64,000 nucleotides of DNA. Source: Hymenobacter volaticus. GTDB lineage: Bacteria > Bacteroidota > Bacteroidia > Cytophagales > Hymenobacteraceae. Location: positions 5,123,501 to 5,187,500 of the forward strand of contig NZ_CP095061.1 in the NCBI RefSeq assembly GCF_022921055.1. The letters run 5' to 3'. The notes below the pieces were generated by a model. The model did not search any database, was not told the DNA's origin, and saw nothing but the letters and a program-made list of their open reading frames with translations. The position numbers and the translations under genes are program-made. Positions 45,970-50,761 of the stretch are shown here, piece by piece; position 1 is the stretch's first letter; every line of letters begins with the position of its first letter.

Positions 45970-47049
45970 TTACGAGTTCATCACCTTATTCTGGCGGTTG
46001 ATGGACTCCAAGTGAACTGCCTCAAGGTAGCTATGGATGAACTCGGGGGTGAGCCCCAAGGCCGTGCCCTGGCGCAGGCTGCGCTCCAGAATTTCGCTGT
46101 AGCGAGTGGTTTGCAGGATGGTGATGTCGTTGTCTTTCTTGTACTGACCGATCTGCTGCGCCACGCCCATGCGGCGGCCGAGTAGCTGCATGATTTCGGT
46201 GTCGAGCTGGTTGATTTGCGCGCGCAGGCCCGCCAAAGCCGTCTGGAACTCGCGCTGGTTGTCGGGCTCGTGGCGCCATACCAAGTGCTCGAGCATGTCT
46301 TTGAGGGCGGCGGCCGTTACTTGCTGCTTGGCGTCGCTCCAGGCGTTGTCCGGGTCGGGGTGCGACTCCAGCATGAGGCCGTCGAAATCAAGGTCGATGG
46401 ACTGCTGCGCCACGGCGGCTAGCGTGTCGCGGCGGCCGCAGATGTGGCTCGGGTCGCAGATGATGGGCAGATCGGGCATGCGGCGCTTCATCTCGATGGG
46501 CAAGTGCCACATCGGGGCGTTGCGGAAGTCGGTGTTGCCGTAGCTGGCGAAACCGCGGTGGATTAGGCCGAGGTCTTTCAAGCCAGCTTTCGCCAAACGC
46601 TCCACGGCGCCCACCCACAGTTCCAGCTCCGGGTGAATCGGGTTTTTCACGAGCACCGGAATATCCACACCCCGCAGCGCGTTGGCTATTTCCTGTACCG
46701 AGAAGGGGTTGCCGGTGGTGCGGGCACCCACCCACAGCACATCCACTTCGAAGGCCAAACAATCCTCTACGTGCTTAGCCGTAGCCACTTCCACGGCTAC
46801 CGGCAAACCCGTCTGTTCCTTAGCCTTACGCAACCAAGGCAAGCCTTTCGTACCGATGCCCTCGAACATGCCTGGCTTGGTGCGTGGCTTCCAGATGCCC
46901 GCCCGCAGCATATCTACGCGGCCCGTAGCCGCCAACTCGGTGGCAGATTGCAGCACTTGCTCTTCGGTTTCGGCGCTGCATGGTCCAGAAATTAGAAGCG
47001 CCTTCTTGTTGATGTTCACGGTCTTGGGCGCGAGGGCAGTTTGATTCAT
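45970..47049 (-). CDS. Bifunctional DAHP synthase / chorismate mutase
   Basis: The 359-residue protein has an N-terminal type I-beta DAHP synthase (LISGPCSAETEEQV, RAGIWKPRTKPGMFEGIG, VLWVGARTTGNPFSVQEIA, VKNPIHPELELW, ICDPSHICGRRD, LMLESHPDPDNAWSDAKQ) and a C-terminal AroQ-type chorismate mutase (about residues 275-355, LRAQINQLDTEIMQLLGRRMGVAQQIGQYKKDN). It makes DAHP, the entry of the shikimate route, and converts chorismate to prephenate; the fusion may allow prephenate or tyrosine/phenylalanine control. It is the last gene of the pheA operon, separated from tyrA by a repeat. Confidence 0.95.
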   Translation of the reverse strand: MNQTALAPKTVNINKKALLISGPCSAETEEQVLQSATELAATGRVDMLRAGIWKPRTKPGMFEGIGTKGLPWLRKAKEQTGLPVAVEVATAKHVEDCLAFEVDVLWVGARTTGNPFSVQEIANALRGVDIPVLVKNPIHPELELWVGAVERLAKAGLKDLGLIHRGFASYGNTDFRNAPMWHLPIEMKRRMPDLPIICDPSHICGRRDTLAAVAQQSIDLDFDGLMLESHPDPDNAWSDAKQQVTAAALKDMLEHLVWRHEPDNQREFQTALAGLRAQINQLDTEIMQLLGRRMGVAQQIGQYKKDNDITILQTTRYSEILERSLRQGTALGLTPEFIHSYLEAVHLESINRQNKVMNS

Positions 47050-47100
47050 GGTATTGAGGTGAATGTGCGAAGTGTTGAAATTGAATCTGTGTCAGAAATG

Positions 47101-47256
47101 GTTATCGTGCTGAGCAGAGCCGGAGCATCTCGCGTGCTGAGGTTGCAAAAGGTATTGTCATGCTGAGCGGAGCCGAAGCATCTCGCGTGGTGTCGTTGCT
47201 AGTAGATGACTTTACTACCCTAGCGAGATGCTTCGGCTGCGCTCAGCATGACGTTC
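47101..47256. repeat. Three-arm cluster of the GTCATGCTGAGCGCAG repeat
   Basis: Two direct copies (47101-47134, diverged, and 47156-47188) and one inverted copy (47222-47255) of the unit also found at 29119-29221. The last two can form a long hairpin. It fills most of the 237-base gap between tyrA and aroA-CM. Confidence 0.85.
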
Positions 47257-47286
47257 TTTTCTTATTTTCTTAGTTAGATGGAAATG

Positions 47287-48135
47287 CTACGAAATGATTT
47301 TGCGAATGTGGTTGGCTTGTTCGATGGATTGCCGCAGCCCTTCGTAGTCTTCGTCGGCTAGCAGGCGGCGCAGTTCTTGGAGTTGCCGGAGGTGCTCGTC
47401 GAGCACATCGAGCACGTTGGTGCGGTTCTGGCGAAAGATGGGCACCCACATAGCCGGGGAGCTTTTCGCCAGGCGCACCGTCGACTCGAAACCGCCGCTG
47501 GCCAAATCAAAGATACGCTGCTCCTCTTTCTCTTTCTCCAACACTGTGAGTGCCAGCGCAAAAGAGGTGATGTGCGAAATGTGCGACACGTACGCCGCGT
47601 GCAGGTCGTGGTCGGCGGCATCGAGGTAGAGCAGGCGCATGGGCAAGGCCCGAAACAGCGCTTCTACCAGTTGCACCGCATCCGGGTCGCTGCGGTGCGC
47701 GTCGCACACTACCAGGGTTTTGCCGGCAAACAAGTGCTGCACGGCCGCCTCGGGTCCAGAGTATTCGGTGCCCGCCATGGGGTGGATGGCCACGAACCGC
47801 CCACGGTTTGGGTGCTCGGCCACGGCAGCCAGCAGCTTCTCTTTGGTAGAGCCCACATCCACCACCACTTGGCGGCCGGTGGCCGCGTCTAGCACCTGCG
47901 GCAACACGCTTAGCATAGCATCCATGGGCACGGCCACTACCACTAGATCGGCGGCGGCTACGGCGGTGGCGAGGTCGGTTTCAATTTCGTCGATCAGGCC
48001 GAGTTCCAACGCCCGTCGGGCATGCTCGGGACTGGCCTCTACCCCAATAAAGCGGTGTGCTAAGCCCTGCTGCCGCAAGCTCAGCGCCAGGGAGCCCCCA
48101 ATCAACCCGATTCCAATTACAGTTACAATGGTCAT
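47287..48135 (-). CDS. tyrA: Prephenate dehydrogenase
   Basis: The 282-residue protein starts MTIVTVIGIGLIGGSLALSLRQQG, an NAD(P)-binding Rossmann motif, followed by VDVGSTKEKLL, VAIHPMAGTEYSGPEAA (the catalytic His region) and a helical C-terminal dimer domain (HDLHAAYVSHISHITSFALAL). It turns prephenate into 4-hydroxyphenylpyruvate for tyrosine. No ACT domain follows. An in-frame start at 48225 overlaps the aminotransferase gene; ATG 48135 is chosen. The aminotransferase stop lies 28 bases upstream. Confidence 0.94.
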   Translation of the reverse strand: MTIVTVIGIGLIGGSLALSLRQQGLAHRFIGVEASPEHARRALELGLIDEIETDLATAVAAADLVVVAVPMDAMLSVLPQVLDAATGRQVVVDVGSTKEKLLAAVAEHPNRGRFVAIHPMAGTEYSGPEAAVQHLFAGKTLVVCDAHRSDPDAVQLVEALFRALPMRLLYLDAADHDLHAAYVSHISHITSFALALTVLEKEKEEQRIFDLASGGFESTVRLAKSSPAMWVPIFRQNRTNVLDVLDEHLRQLQELRRLLADEDYEGLRQSIEQANHIRKIIS

Positions 48136-48163
48136 GTTCGGTGGAAGTTTACCTGTGTTTTTG

Positions 48164-49336
48164 CTAGGCCAACGCCTTGCGAGACTGCACAATGCGGTCC
48201 ACCGCCTTCCGAAGCATCGCTTCACTTTGGCAGAGACTCACCCGGACGAAGCCGTTGCCGTTGCTACCGAAAATGCCGCCGGGCGTCAGGAACACGCGTG
48301 CTTCATTCAGTAGCTCGTCGCTGAGGGCATAGCCATCGGCGTAGGCGGGTGGCACGGCAGCCCATACAAACAGGCCGGTTTGCTCGGGGTCGGGTTGGCA
48401 GCCGAGAGTGTGCAGCAGTTCGAATACCACCTCACGCCGGGCCTTGTACACGGCGTTTAGTTCCGTAAACCATTCATCCCCAAGCGCCAGCGCTGCTACG
48501 GCCGCTTGCTGCACCGGCAGAAACATCCCCGAATCCATGTTGCTCTTGAAGCGCAACACCTCCCGCAGCCAATCGGCGCGGCCCGCCAGCAGGCCCACGC
48601 GCCAGCCGGCCATGTTGTGCGACTTGCTCAAGGAATTCAGCTCCAAGGCTACTTCCCGCGCGCCTGGCACCGCCAGCAAACTCATGGGCGCGTCGTTGAG
48701 GATGAAGCTGTAGGGGTTGTCATGGATCAGCATAATCTGATGCTGCTGCGCGAAGGCCACCAGCCGCGCCAAGAACGCCGCGTCGGCGCGGGTGCCGGTT
48801 GGCATGTGCGGGTAGTTGACCAGCATCATCTTCACCTTGCTCAAGTCCGACTCAGCCAGTGCCTCTAGGTCGGGCAGCCAGCCAGCGGCTTCGGTCAGGT
48901 CATACTCACGGATGGTGGCGCCGCAGATTTCGGCTACTGCACGGTAAGTGGGGTAGCCGGGGTTCGGAATCAGCACGACGTCGCCGGCCTCCAAGAACGT
49001 CATCCCGATGTGCATCAAACCTTCTTTCGAGCCGAGCAGCGGCAGCACTTCGGTGGCCGGATCCAGGGTCACGTCGTAGGCGCGGTTGTACCACTCGGCT
49101 ACGGCCGCACGCAAAGCCGGAATGCCTTGGTAGCTCTGGTAGCCGTGGGTGGTAGGCAGCGCCGCCGAGGCTGTGAGTGCCGCCGTTACGGTTGGGTGTG
49201 GCGGCAAGTCGGGGCTACCGATGCCGAGGTTGATGATGTCGGCGCCGGCTTGGTTGAGGGCCGCAATTTCGCGCAGCTTCTGCGAGAAGTAGTATTCACC
49301 GGTATTCGCTAAGCGCTGAGCAGTTGAAACTTGCAT
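48164..49336 (-). CDS. Class I/II aminotransferase (aromatic amino acid operon)
   Basis: The 390-residue PLP enzyme has the usual landmarks: INLGIGSPDLPPHPTV, the PNPGYPTYRAVAEICG segment, LVNYPHMPTGTRAD, IHDNPYSFI and the PLP-lysine in ELNSLSKSHNMAGWRVG near residue 233. Its place between pheA and tyrA suggests it aminates phenylpyruvate and 4-hydroxyphenylpyruvate to Phe and Tyr, although the sequence alone would also allow aspartate or diaminopimelate-type activity. ATG 49336 begins MQVSTAQRLANTGEYYFSQKL. Confidence 0.92.
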   Translation of the reverse strand: MQVSTAQRLANTGEYYFSQKLREIAALNQAGADIINLGIGSPDLPPHPTVTAALTASAALPTTHGYQSYQGIPALRAAVAEWYNRAYDVTLDPATEVLPLLGSKEGLMHIGMTFLEAGDVVLIPNPGYPTYRAVAEICGATIREYDLTEAAGWLPDLEALAESDLSKVKMMLVNYPHMPTGTRADAAFLARLVAFAQQHQIMLIHDNPYSFILNDAPMSLLAVPGAREVALELNSLSKSHNMAGWRVGLLAGRADWLREVLRFKSNMDSGMFLPVQQAAVAALALGDEWFTELNAVYKARREVVFELLHTLGCQPDPEQTGLFVWAAVPPAYADGYALSDELLNEARVFLTPGGIFGSNGNGFVRVSLCQSEAMLRKAVDRIVQSRKALA

Positions 49337-49374
49337 GGCGGTTGGTTGATGATTGCCAGTTACTCGGGAGGAAA

Positions 49375-49392
49375 ACCAAGCTTCTGCTTGGT
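49375..49392 (-). other. Small hairpin between pheA and aminotransferase genes
   Basis: Perfect 7-base stem ACCAAGC/GCTTGGT with a 4-base loop, followed by TTTT on the minus strand. It is weak and no aromatic-rich leader ORF precedes it, so it may only pause or partly terminate transcription. Confidence 0.45.
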
Positions 49393-49479
49393 GCATTACC
49401 GACTTATTTCTTGTTGAGAAGGAGCCGCCGTTGGCAGCATCTTACCTACTAGTTGCTTGGTGACGAGAGGCGGACTCGA

Positions 49480-50313
49480 TCAATAATATTCGCCGCGCTG
49501 ATAGGCGCCAAGCACTTGCAAATCGTCGGTGAGCAGGGTGAGTTCTTGCAGTAAGTCCGGCAACTGTGTGGCTTCATCGAACTCGACATCGGCGTGGAAG
49601 TAGTACTGCCACGTGCGCCCCGGCCGCGGGCACGACTGGAGCTTGGAGAGGTTGAAGCCGTGGCCGGCAATGCACGTCAGCACGCGGGCCAAGCTGCCGC
49701 GTTGGTGGTCGGTGTGGAAATAGAGCGAGGCTTTGTTGGCCGTGCTGATGGACCGCTCGGGGTCTTGGCGCTCCAATACCAAGAAGCGAGTATAGTTTTC
49801 GGGGTCAGCGTGAATGTCGTGGGCCAGCACTTCCAGGCCGTAGAGGCGGGCAGCCGCTTCGCCAGCTACGGCCGCAATTCCTATTTGGCTGTGCTCGCGC
49901 AAGTGCCGAGCGCTCAGGGCCGTATCTACCGTTTCAACCAACTGCCAGGGGTGTAGCGCCAAGAAATCGGCGCATTGCAGCAGCGCCACCGGATGCGAAT
50001 GCACTTCCCGGATATCGGCTAGTTCCTGCCCCGGCAAGGCCAATAGGTGCTGCCGGATGCGCAAGTACACTTCACCTGTTACCTGCACTGCCGACCGTTG
50101 CAACAAGCTGTAGTTGGGCAGGATGCTGCCGGCAATGGAATTCTCAATGGCCATCAATCCAACCTCGGCCGTGCCACTCGTTACTTGCCGCACTACTTCG
50201 CTGAAAGTGGCGCAGGGCGCAATAGCAGGGGTTGAGCCGAAGTAGTGGCGAGCGGCTAGTTCGTGGAAACTGCCCGCGTACCCCTGAATAGCAATGGCGG
50301 AAGAGGAAGACAT
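49480..50313 (-). CDS. pheA: Prephenate dehydratase
   Basis: The 277-residue protein has the dehydratase domain (IAIQGYAGSFHELAARHYFG, TSGTAEVGLMAIENSIAGSILPNYSLL, and the catalytic TRF in ENYTRFLVL near residue 185) and a C-terminal ACT domain (ASLYFHTDHQRGSLARVLTCIAGHGFNLSKLQSCP, about 200-275) for phenylalanine feedback. It converts prephenate to phenylpyruvate. ATG 50313 begins MSSSSAIAIQGY; an upstream TTG extension is unlikely. It is the first enzyme gene of the operon and lies behind two leader-peptide/terminator units. Confidence 0.95.
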   Translation of the reverse strand: MSSSSAIAIQGYAGSFHELAARHYFGSTPAIAPCATFSEVVRQVTSGTAEVGLMAIENSIAGSILPNYSLLQRSAVQVTGEVYLRIRQHLLALPGQELADIREVHSHPVALLQCADFLALHPWQLVETVDTALSARHLREHSQIGIAAVAGEAAARLYGLEVLAHDIHADPENYTRFLVLERQDPERSISTANKASLYFHTDHQRGSLARVLTCIAGHGFNLSKLQSCPRPGRTWQYYFHADVEFDEATQLPDLLQELTLLTDDLQVLGAYQRGEYY

Positions 50314-50369: not shown

Positions 50370-50397
50370 AAAAAGGGCTCCTCTGTGCGGGGGCCCT
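50370..50397 (-). terminator. Attenuator hairpin 2 of the pheA operon
   Basis: On the minus strand, AGGGCCCC (50397-50390) pairs with GGAGCCCT (50381-50374) with one mismatch, around an 8-base loop, followed by five T. It lies 48 bases after leader peptide 2 and 57 bases before pheA. A 5-base GGCCC beside the leader 2 stop could pair with its left arm. Confidence 0.75.
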
Positions 50398-50445
50398 GGG
50401 TTTGCGGTGGTGCGGAGCGGTGAGTCTGCAGTGGCAAAAGCGGGC

Positions 50446-50508
50446 CTAGTTCTTCGAGTAAAAGAACGGGTAATAGAAGAAGGTAAAAATGGGGGCGAAG
50501 TGGCGCAT
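50446..50508 (-). CDS. Phe/Tyr-rich leader peptide 2 of the pheA operon
   Basis: A 20-codon ORF from ATG 50508 to TAG 50446 encodes MRHFAPIFTFFYYPFFYSKN: six Phe and three Tyr, nine of the 14 residues from 4 to 17. The composition recalls enterobacterial PheL leader peptides. It begins 15 bases after the U tract of hairpin 1 and is followed by hairpin 2, so ribosome stalling on Phe or Tyr codons could control readthrough into pheA. The reading is direct from the sequence; the regulatory role is inference. Confidence 0.8.
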   Translation of the reverse strand: MRHFAPIFTFFYYPFFYSKN

Positions 50509-50523
50509 GGAAGGAAAAGACGT

Positions 50524-50555
50524 AAAAAAAGCGCCTCTCGAAGTCGAGAGGCGCT
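50524..50555 (-). terminator. Attenuator hairpin 1 of the pheA operon
   Basis: On the minus strand a perfect 12-base stem AGCGCCTCTCGA/TCGAGAGGCGCT with a 2-base apex is followed by seven T. It is a textbook intrinsic terminator in the sense direction of pheA but upstream of it, and 40 bases after leader peptide 1. Confidence 0.9.
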
Positions 50556-50595
50556 GGAGTTTTCAGGTTGGAAAAGCTACACGGCGGCTGCTCGA

Positions 50596-50649
50596 CTACG
50601 CAGAAGCGCAGAAGTAATAAAAGCCAAAAAAGTAGCGTTGCTGTGCCAT
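50596..50649 (-). CDS. Phe/Tyr-rich leader peptide 1 of the pheA operon
   Basis: A 17-codon ORF from ATG 50649 to TAG 50596 encodes MAQQRYFFGFYYFCASA. Residues 6-13 hold four Phe and three Tyr in eight positions. AGTCGAG, starting within the stop codon, is complementary to CTCGACT in hairpin 1, so a ribosome finishing the leader would cover the competing sequence and let the terminator form. That is the classical attenuation logic. The ORF and pairing are seen; the mechanism is inferred. Confidence 0.82.
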   Translation of the reverse strand: MAQQRYFFGFYYFCASA

Positions 50650-50761
50650 GGGTGAGTAGCTTAACGGCGGCAATGTGGAGAAAGATTTTCAGAAAATCAA
50701 CGTTTTACCTTCTTCATTTTGTTAACTGGTACCGCCCCGAGTTTCGTATACACTGCCACCT

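Follow-up and report, generated by a model that had tools for sequence, protein, structure and literature searches.

Two leader-peptide units lie in series upstream of pheA in Hymenobacter volaticus, and this double unit is not a product of chance. The two are very probably ribosome-mediated transcription attenuators that act one after the other on a single transcript. The case is built, by sequence comparison, on the ORFs, the terminators, the alternative pairing, the spacing, a promoter-like site found before ORF1 only, and conservation. The window analysed here, a stretch of 64 000 nucleotides, is part of a 7.1 Mb genome, and the named PheA proteins closest to its own are from Hymenobacter.

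On the minus strand, the order of features is promoter-like site, ORF1, strong terminator, ORF2, weaker terminator and pheA operon. The promoter-like site (50670..50700) has a -33 TTG (50700-50698), a 20-nt spacer and a -7 box CACATTGC (50677-50670), which begins 28 nt 5' of the ORF1 ATG. Leader ORF1 (MAQQRYFFGFYYFCASA, then a stop codon; 50596..50649) is kept in relatives as unit 1. Its protector hairpin (strands 1:2, CUGCGC-UUCU-GCGUAG, 50596..50611), found by RNAalifold and in the minimum-energy fold, ends in the ORF1 stop codon. Strand 2 of unit 1, GUCGAG (50591..50596), is the predicted antiterminator strand and pairs with CUCGAC (50548-50543) of terminator 1. The latter (50524..50555), identified by a terminator scan and by compensatory changes, is an 11-bp hairpin (50555-50530) with a U tract. 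Leader ORF2 (MRHFAPIFTFFYYPFFYSKN, then a stop codon; 50446..50508) is kept in relatives as unit 2. It may form a protector hairpin of its own, GUUCUU...AAGAAC (50449..50467), recognized by eye, in which Phe codons face Lys-Asn codons; KK or KN codons recur 3' of the F/Y run in many unit 2 ORFs. Strand 2 of this unit, GGCCC (50442..50446), pairs with GGGCC (50396-50392) of terminator 2 (50370..50397), which consists of seven pairs around one mismatch (hairpin 50397-50374) and five U, and which does not appear in the output of a simple terminator scan of 1.4 kb. All these features are on the minus strand, as is the operon. Its first gene is pheA, coding for prephenate dehydratase (49480..50313, ATG at 50313), followed by genes for an aminotransferase, TyrA and a DAHP synthase-chorismate mutase (45970..49396).

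Re-reading of the sequence bore out the initial annotation as to the two units in series, their ORFs and hairpins, and their order. The initial annotation also named the operon as pheA, aminotransferase, tyrA and aroA-CM next to a divergent TPR gene, and Pfam agrees: the domains found are PDT, aminotransferase I/II, prephenate dehydrogenase, and DAHP synthase with chorismate mutase, and the divergent neighbour is a TPR gene. From this gene set it follows that the products are Phe and Tyr; the last enzyme of the operon, the DAHP synthase-chorismate mutase, acts where the common route to the three aromatic amino acids begins. Some details need correction. The stem of the first hairpin, given as 12 bases, has 11 pairs (50555-50530), and its seven U are reached only when counting a first U that pairs with A. 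The second hairpin is present with its five U, and is the weaker of the two.

We infer the following sequence of events, including the ribosome stall, the direction of the switch, the series (AND-like) logic and the steeper or two-input response. RNA polymerase would start before ORF1. When charged Phe- and Tyr-tRNA are plentiful, the ribosome would reach the ORF1 stop codon and cover strand 2, so that terminator 1 forms and transcription ends. When Phe- or Tyr-tRNA is short, the ribosome would stall in the Phe/Tyr run and cover strand 1; the free strand 2 would then pair with the 5' arm of terminator 1, and the polymerase would pass. About 25 nt further on, ORF2 would repeat the test at terminator 2, before pheA. 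Expression would scale with the product of the two read-through probabilities, or with the square of read-through if the units are equal, and the doubled test would reduce leak and steepen the response when Phe or Tyr runs short.

Several controls set this arrangement apart from random sequence. The fold of the leader RNA is more stable than all of 100 shuffles (z -3.4). The codon pattern of ORF1 (TWYx3-NNN-TWYx4) occurs at two sites in the whole 7.1 Mb genome, and the second of these is inside a 179-codon open frame, not a short ORF. A strict finder was then defined, in which a unit is a short ORF that has six or more F/Y within ten codons, followed by a hairpin of -7 kcal/mol or lower with a T tract. 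It detects at least one unit in 249 of the 273 real pheA upstream regions. On dinucleotide-shuffled upstream regions, it returned one unit in 2 of 1345 and two units in none; on the reverse strands, it returned a unit in 0 of 273. Hairpins by themselves are close to the chance level (three terminator-like sites over 1.4 kb, against 2.1 in shuffles), and it is therefore the combination of ORF and terminator, together with its conservation, that carries the argument.

The upstream regions comprise 104 from Hymenobacter, 80 from named records and 89 from the same family or class; the sets overlap slightly, seven named Hymenobacter (L031-L037) and L186 repeating members of the genus set. Among 120 Hymenobacter genomes, 107 have a PheA match and 13 have none; 104 loci were read, the fragments G100, G108 and G115 being left out. 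The other loci read are 41 of 61 from the same family and 47 of 62 class matches, taken mostly by score order with some skipped. The class sample holds 247 genomes, 65 with a PheA match; the 182 without one are uninformative.

With the strict finder, whose counts retain identical sequences, there are two units in 75 of the 104 Hymenobacter and one in the other 29. Six of these 29 (L016, L017, L023, L028, L114 and L184) have a second unit just under the thresholds, which brings the genus to 81 tandem and 23 single loci. Raw counts are 13 with two units, 60 with one and 7 with none for the named set (n = 80), and 13, 59 and 17, respectively, for the family/class set (n = 89); they include L099 (an overlapping out-of-frame ORF) and L200 (a 71-nt gap, on a long branch), neither of which we take as tandem. 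Five of the seven named loci without a unit keep an F/Y ORF and miss only an above-threshold terminator. Genus g6, with a PheA match in four genomes, has tandem units in all three loci read. Genus g5, which belongs to the same family as Hymenobacter, has them in 8 of 24 loci, and Chitinophaga in five of eight; the other three Chitinophaga have both ORFs, with one terminator below threshold. Genera g2 and g4 (seven loci each) have one unit. The remaining 65 named loci consist of 57 with one unit, seven with none and the artefact L099. In the wider class, at least one unit is present in 30 of the 47 loci read and none in 17. The initial annotation knew of no double unit of this kind in Bacteroidota; we likewise found none described in the open-access literature. 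Single units prove common in other Bacteroidia.

A tree of 134 PheA proteins requires four changes of the two-unit label, at least three of them forced by well-supported branches, and places Hymenobacter and Chitinophaga as separate tandem clades. Labels were assigned by hand: the six near-threshold Hymenobacter count as two, L099 as one, the doubtful L200 carries the two-unit label, and the Chitinophaga loci L060, L072 and L087 are labelled single; the g5 loci are too short and were left out. Given the separate clades, the tandem form probably arose more than once, in a tree that does not permit gains and losses to be counted. The 23 single-unit Hymenobacter retain a unit-1-like ORF, which suggests that they lost unit 2. 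In six of them (L111-L113, L118-L120), ORF1 overruns its usual stop into strand 2 and ends like ...YYLPGSRAAVL. The PheA of the window matches the best Chitinophagaceae PheA at 55-56%; within its own family, the PheA proteins of g2, g4 and g5 reach 46% or less among the matches listed. A PheA closer to Chitinophagaceae than to g2, g4 and g5 hints at a transfer of the operon.

Each of the two short ORFs clusters codons for the end products of the operon, as is expected of an attenuator. Selection on these codons was studied in sister pairs, identical sequences being dropped, as they were for the helix, arm-swap and pairing-type counts; the Hymenobacter group, here and in the arm-swap, pairing-type, spacing, last-codon and promoter counts, includes L031-L037, L186 and the three g6 loci. 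For unit 1 (31 sister pairs), codon positions 1/2/3 account for 2/14/28 differences in F/Y columns (248 codon pairs), with 25 synonymous changes, seven F<->Y exchanges and eight codons lost or gained; the other columns differ 21/16/25 times (281 codon pairs). For unit 2 (21 sister pairs), the corresponding figures are 6/6/17 in F/Y columns (189 codon pairs; 16 synonymous, two F<->Y, eight lost or gained) and 20/23/33 elsewhere (360 codon pairs). The F/Y content of both ORFs is largely preserved, with codon choice left free, and the expectation that Hymenobacter would retain Phe/Tyr codons in both ORFs held, changes being mainly at third positions and between F and Y. An all-pairs version of the test (unit 1: 512 synonymous changes, 791 not) was blurred by forced ungapped pairing and was dropped. 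In Chitinophaga, the Phe/Tyr run of ORF1 ends with one Trp codon in all eight loci (L060, L072, L081, L082, L087, L091, L093 and L109), a possible third aromatic input.

Pairing of strand 2 with the terminator arm co-varies between relatives. Unit 1 and the unit-1-like singles show the types GUCGAG/CUCGAC, GUCGGG/CCCGAC, AACGAGC/GCUCGUU and AACGAGU/ACUCGUU; unit 2 shows GGCCC/GGGCC (18 of 76 units), GCGGGGCC/GGCCCCGC and others; and outside the Hymenobacter group there are 81 pairing types among 148 units. Sub-clades differ by one base in the register of strand 2, and an arm-swap test was used instead of column-wise pair counts. In this test, whose permutations take the units as independent with kinship uncorrected, the own arm outscored permuted arms in six of six groups, with 0 of 2000 permutations as good in each; for all 303 units, the score was 18.05 against 13.49 (s.d. 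0.17, 1000 permutations). The own arm exceeds the mean foreign arm in 107 of 114 single units outside the group, in 62 of 74 second units of Hymenobacter and in only 42 of 64 first units. The hairpin covariation that the initial annotation had proposed as a check was confirmed, terminator 1 having compensatory changes and strand 2 covarying with the terminator arm. Against shuffled spacers, the helix has p <= 0.05 in 201 of 327 distinct units, leaving 126 without a significant single helix; by class, this holds for 112 of 146 singles, 41 of 91 first units of tandems and 48 of 90 second units. In the window, p is 0.03 for the unit 1 helix (GUCGAG/CUCGAC) and 0.12, not significant, for that of unit 2 (GGCCC/GGGCC). 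An antiterminator (2:3) pairing is accordingly found for the set as a whole and for unit 1 of the window, the unit 2 helix of the window standing at p 0.12.

The position of strand 2 is also constrained. In 314 of 327 units, it starts 6-17 nt past the final Phe or Tyr codon; among the 201 significant units, the median is 11 nt and 97% fall within 6-17 nt, against 25% for uniform placement. In the latter units, the distance from strand 2 to the stop codon is spread from about -31 to 0. It is therefore to the starvation codons, and not to the stop, that strand 2 keeps a constant distance. This distance is roughly the length of downstream RNA that a stalled ribosome occupies, and the control codons are accordingly so placed that a ribosome stalled on them would cover strand 1 and leave strand 2 free. 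In many units strand 2 lies inside the ORF, and peptide tails such as GPICRS, PGMLLL and SRD seem to be determined by the RNA.

Folding predictions agree with this arrangement for unit 1. From 75 unit-1 sequences RNAalifold recovered, unaided, the classical 1:2 hairpin (linking the last part of the F/Y run with the stop codon) and the terminator, with both-side changes in 6 of 13 pairs. In both units, judged from the sequence, an intrinsic terminator lies between the leader ORF and the first structural gene. A state model was computed for distinct sequences with the ribosome parked either at the last F/Y codon (starved) or at the stop (fed). In 326 of 327 units, the starved state sequesters strand 3 more than the fed state does, an effect due in part to the larger amount of free RNA; starved sequestration exceeds that obtained with shuffled upstream RNA in 309 of 327. 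For unit 1 of the window, the kinetic measure of strand-3 sequestration is 0.86 starved, 0.24 fed and 0.49 shuffled, and at equilibrium the terminator dominates both states (0.98 and 0.97). Since the equilibrium terminator wins either way, the switch of this unit must be kinetic and take place during RNA synthesis. For unit 2 of the window, starved sequestration (0.42) is no better than with shuffled RNA (0.47), although at equilibrium its terminator drops from a probability of 0.81 in the fed state to 0.23 in the starved one. When the naked leader is folded as a whole, the minimum-energy structure contains the protector hairpin of unit 1 along with terminator 1, whereas for unit 2 it has the antiterminator; unit 2 would therefore need ribosome cover in order to terminate. 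On these models, unit 2 is the weakest link in H. volaticus and could be failing.

A scan for sigma-70 promoters found none, and the motif of the phylum, TTG/TAnnTTTG, was used instead, its -7 box TAnnTTTG being taken from PMC9723704. The promoter and spacing counts that follow retain identical sequences. The motif in its Hymenobacter form, whose -7 box was defined after inspection of the sequences, precedes the first unit in 82 of the 115 Hymenobacter-group loci, against 1.6 in shuffles, and occurs in none of 114 far upstream, none of 86 between the units and none of 114 before pheA; the zero between the units also matches shuffles (0.2 of 86). Outside the group, TTG-N-TAnnTTTG precedes the first unit in 61 of 132 loci and is found in none of 132 far-upstream regions and none of 133 regions before pheA. 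From the end of terminator 1 to the ORF2 ATG, the median distance is 25 nt (10-90% range 21-27; 101 loci, with outliers L099 and L200). Because this spacing is short and the promoter motif lies only before the first unit, both units are most likely in series on one RNA and both would have to be passed. In half of the 61 loci with the full motif outside the Hymenobacter group, the TAnnTTTG box starts 18 nt or less 5' of the leader ATG. The leader mRNAs of these loci (within L038-L110 and L187-L273) may be almost leaderless, which would allow the ribosome to load at once.

Other explanations of the double unit were weighed. The idea that T-rich ORFs fell by chance next to unrelated terminators could appeal to the near-random number of terminator-like hairpins (3 against 2.1 shuffled); conservation refutes it, ORF and terminator being joined in 249 of 273 real upstream regions against 2 of 1345 shuffled and 0 of 273 reversed, and its probability is negligible. 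We also consider it very improbable that the ORFs work at the level of translation, by coupling to or reinitiation on the following ORF or pheA, and not by transcription termination. Short leader ORFs near a gene start have been proposed to raise translation (PMC4833913); here, however, an intrinsic-type terminator follows each ORF, strands 2 and 3 covary, and ORF2 ends 132 nt ahead of the pheA ATG.

The remaining alternatives concern the second unit. It is quite unlikely that only one unit is active and the other, unit 2 in the window, is a decaying remnant of slow loss. That reading is favoured by the 23 of 104 Hymenobacter with a single unit, which is of the unit-1 kind by its ORF ends, and by the weakness of unit 2 in the window as to hairpin, helix (p 0.12), sequestration and shortened tail. 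Against it, unit 2 is present in 81 of 104 Hymenobacter, its own arm is better than the mean foreign arm in 62 of 74, and its F/Y columns change mainly at third positions (6/6/17). A two-input AND gate, with unit 1 responding mostly to Tyr and unit 2 mostly to Phe, is a special form of the preferred explanation and, in our view, unlikely; in Chitinophaga, unit 1 may perhaps respond to Trp as well. In the Hymenobacter group, 71 of 76 distinct first units have Tyr as their final F/Y codon, and 68 of 76 distinct second units have Phe in the penultimate one; in Chitinophaga, a Trp codon ends the run in all eight ORF1. Yet both units mix Phe and Tyr, and the Phe share (0.48 in unit 1 against 0.54 in unit 2) is greater in unit 2 in only 55 of 86 loci. 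A Tyr-specific unit 1 and a Phe-specific unit 2 are thus only partly supported. Two attenuators in series remain the preferred reading. We suggest more tentatively, at slightly under even confidence, that in-series doubling for the same signal is a recurrent design in Bacteroidota (Hymenobacter with g6, part of g5, and Chitinophaga), probably of more than one origin, which would give a multiplicative, steeper or Tyr-then-Phe two-input aromatic gate, and that the ribosome-length spacing would reflect ribosomes trailing RNA polymerase closely enough to control it.

Similar leaders occur elsewhere in the same genome. Upstream of trpE (L277, G000:C1 about 1902300-1902500), a Trp leader ORF (AWWWP; end MTQQAWWWPLGNSGRDLLCVR) precedes a strong terminator, and a TACCTTTG box lies 5' of this leader. 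Upstream of hisG (L276), there is a short His-rich ORF (HHHQHGHH) ending in RAAHHHQHGHHSSF, and no U-rich terminator there passed the finder. No leader was found in the 1500 bases upstream of two ilvD copies. Given these Trp and His leaders, predicted leader-peptide control in H. volaticus is not confined to pheA; doubling is seen at pheA only, among the operons checked. Bacteroidota ribosomes do not use Shine-Dalgarno pairing (PMC9976891, PMC6847099). The 327 distinct units form a large set of predicted leader-peptide attenuators in a phylum where, in the literature consulted, these had only been hinted at before. Ribosome-controlled terminators need coupled transcription and translation, and the set makes this coupling testable in Bacteroidota. 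The tandem leader offers a naturally occurring pair of like sensors in series, and what the second one adds can be measured by comparing sister species that have one or two units.

Leader-peptide attenuators are known from pheA/pheST (PheL) and trp of Escherichia coli. The units described here resemble these in having a short ORF with codons for the product, 1:2, 2:3 and 3:4 hairpins, and a terminator before a biosynthetic operon. The E. coli leaders have one unit, with Phe alone in PheL, and Shine-Dalgarno starts, whereas Hymenobacter has two units with mixed Phe and Tyr. The Rfam model Phe_leader (RF01859) matches unit 1 over its full length at 30.3 bits (E 0.008), under its gathering cut-off of 55 bits, and has no match at that threshold in 20 loci. 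The sub-threshold matches in the window (suhB, GlmZ and Phe_leader) are a matter of resemblance, not membership, and at gathering threshold the 20 loci give a single Rfam match, to part of a group II intron, in L060. T-box models gave no match in the window (E up to 1) or, at gathering threshold, in the 20 loci.

T-boxes also exist in tandem, as sensor-terminator units in series. Tandem riboswitches, such as those of metE in Bacillus clausii, are described in PMC3641672. Both share with the present case the two sensor-terminator units in series; they differ in that the RNA of a riboswitch or T-box senses its ligand or tRNA directly, whereas here the translating ribosome would be the sensor. 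A survey by Lopatovskaya et al. from 2010 is said to compare attenuation systems and could contain related cases. The mgtCBR leader of Salmonella has two tandem leader ORFs, each an attenuator, that answer different signals, ATP and proline, additively, and it is called a singular example (PMC3641672). It resembles the pheA leader in its two tandem ORFs on one transcript, which for pheA is probable from spacing and promoter motifs. As described in that source, the mgtCBR signals are different and the operon is not one of amino-acid biosynthesis. Both Hymenobacter units mix Phe and Tyr, with a bias at the last codons only.

Within the phylum, short ORFs reminiscent of leader peptides are reported for Bacteroides thetaiotaomicron (PMC7366714), and strong clues for leader-peptide attenuation at amino-acid operons for Flavobacterium psychrophilum, whose pheA has a conserved 5' element without an Rfam match (PMC9723704). 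The latter concerns the same gene in the same phylum; the available part of that account gives no pheA mechanism, tandem unit or phylum-wide comparison. The accessible text of PMC2965389 mentions neither Bacteroidetes nor pheA. We found no description of tandem same-signal leader-peptide attenuators, or of attenuators in Hymenobacter, in the open-access literature. The leader-peptide attenuator is a known type, single copies of it are widespread in the relatives, and it is the conserved double form that appears to be new.
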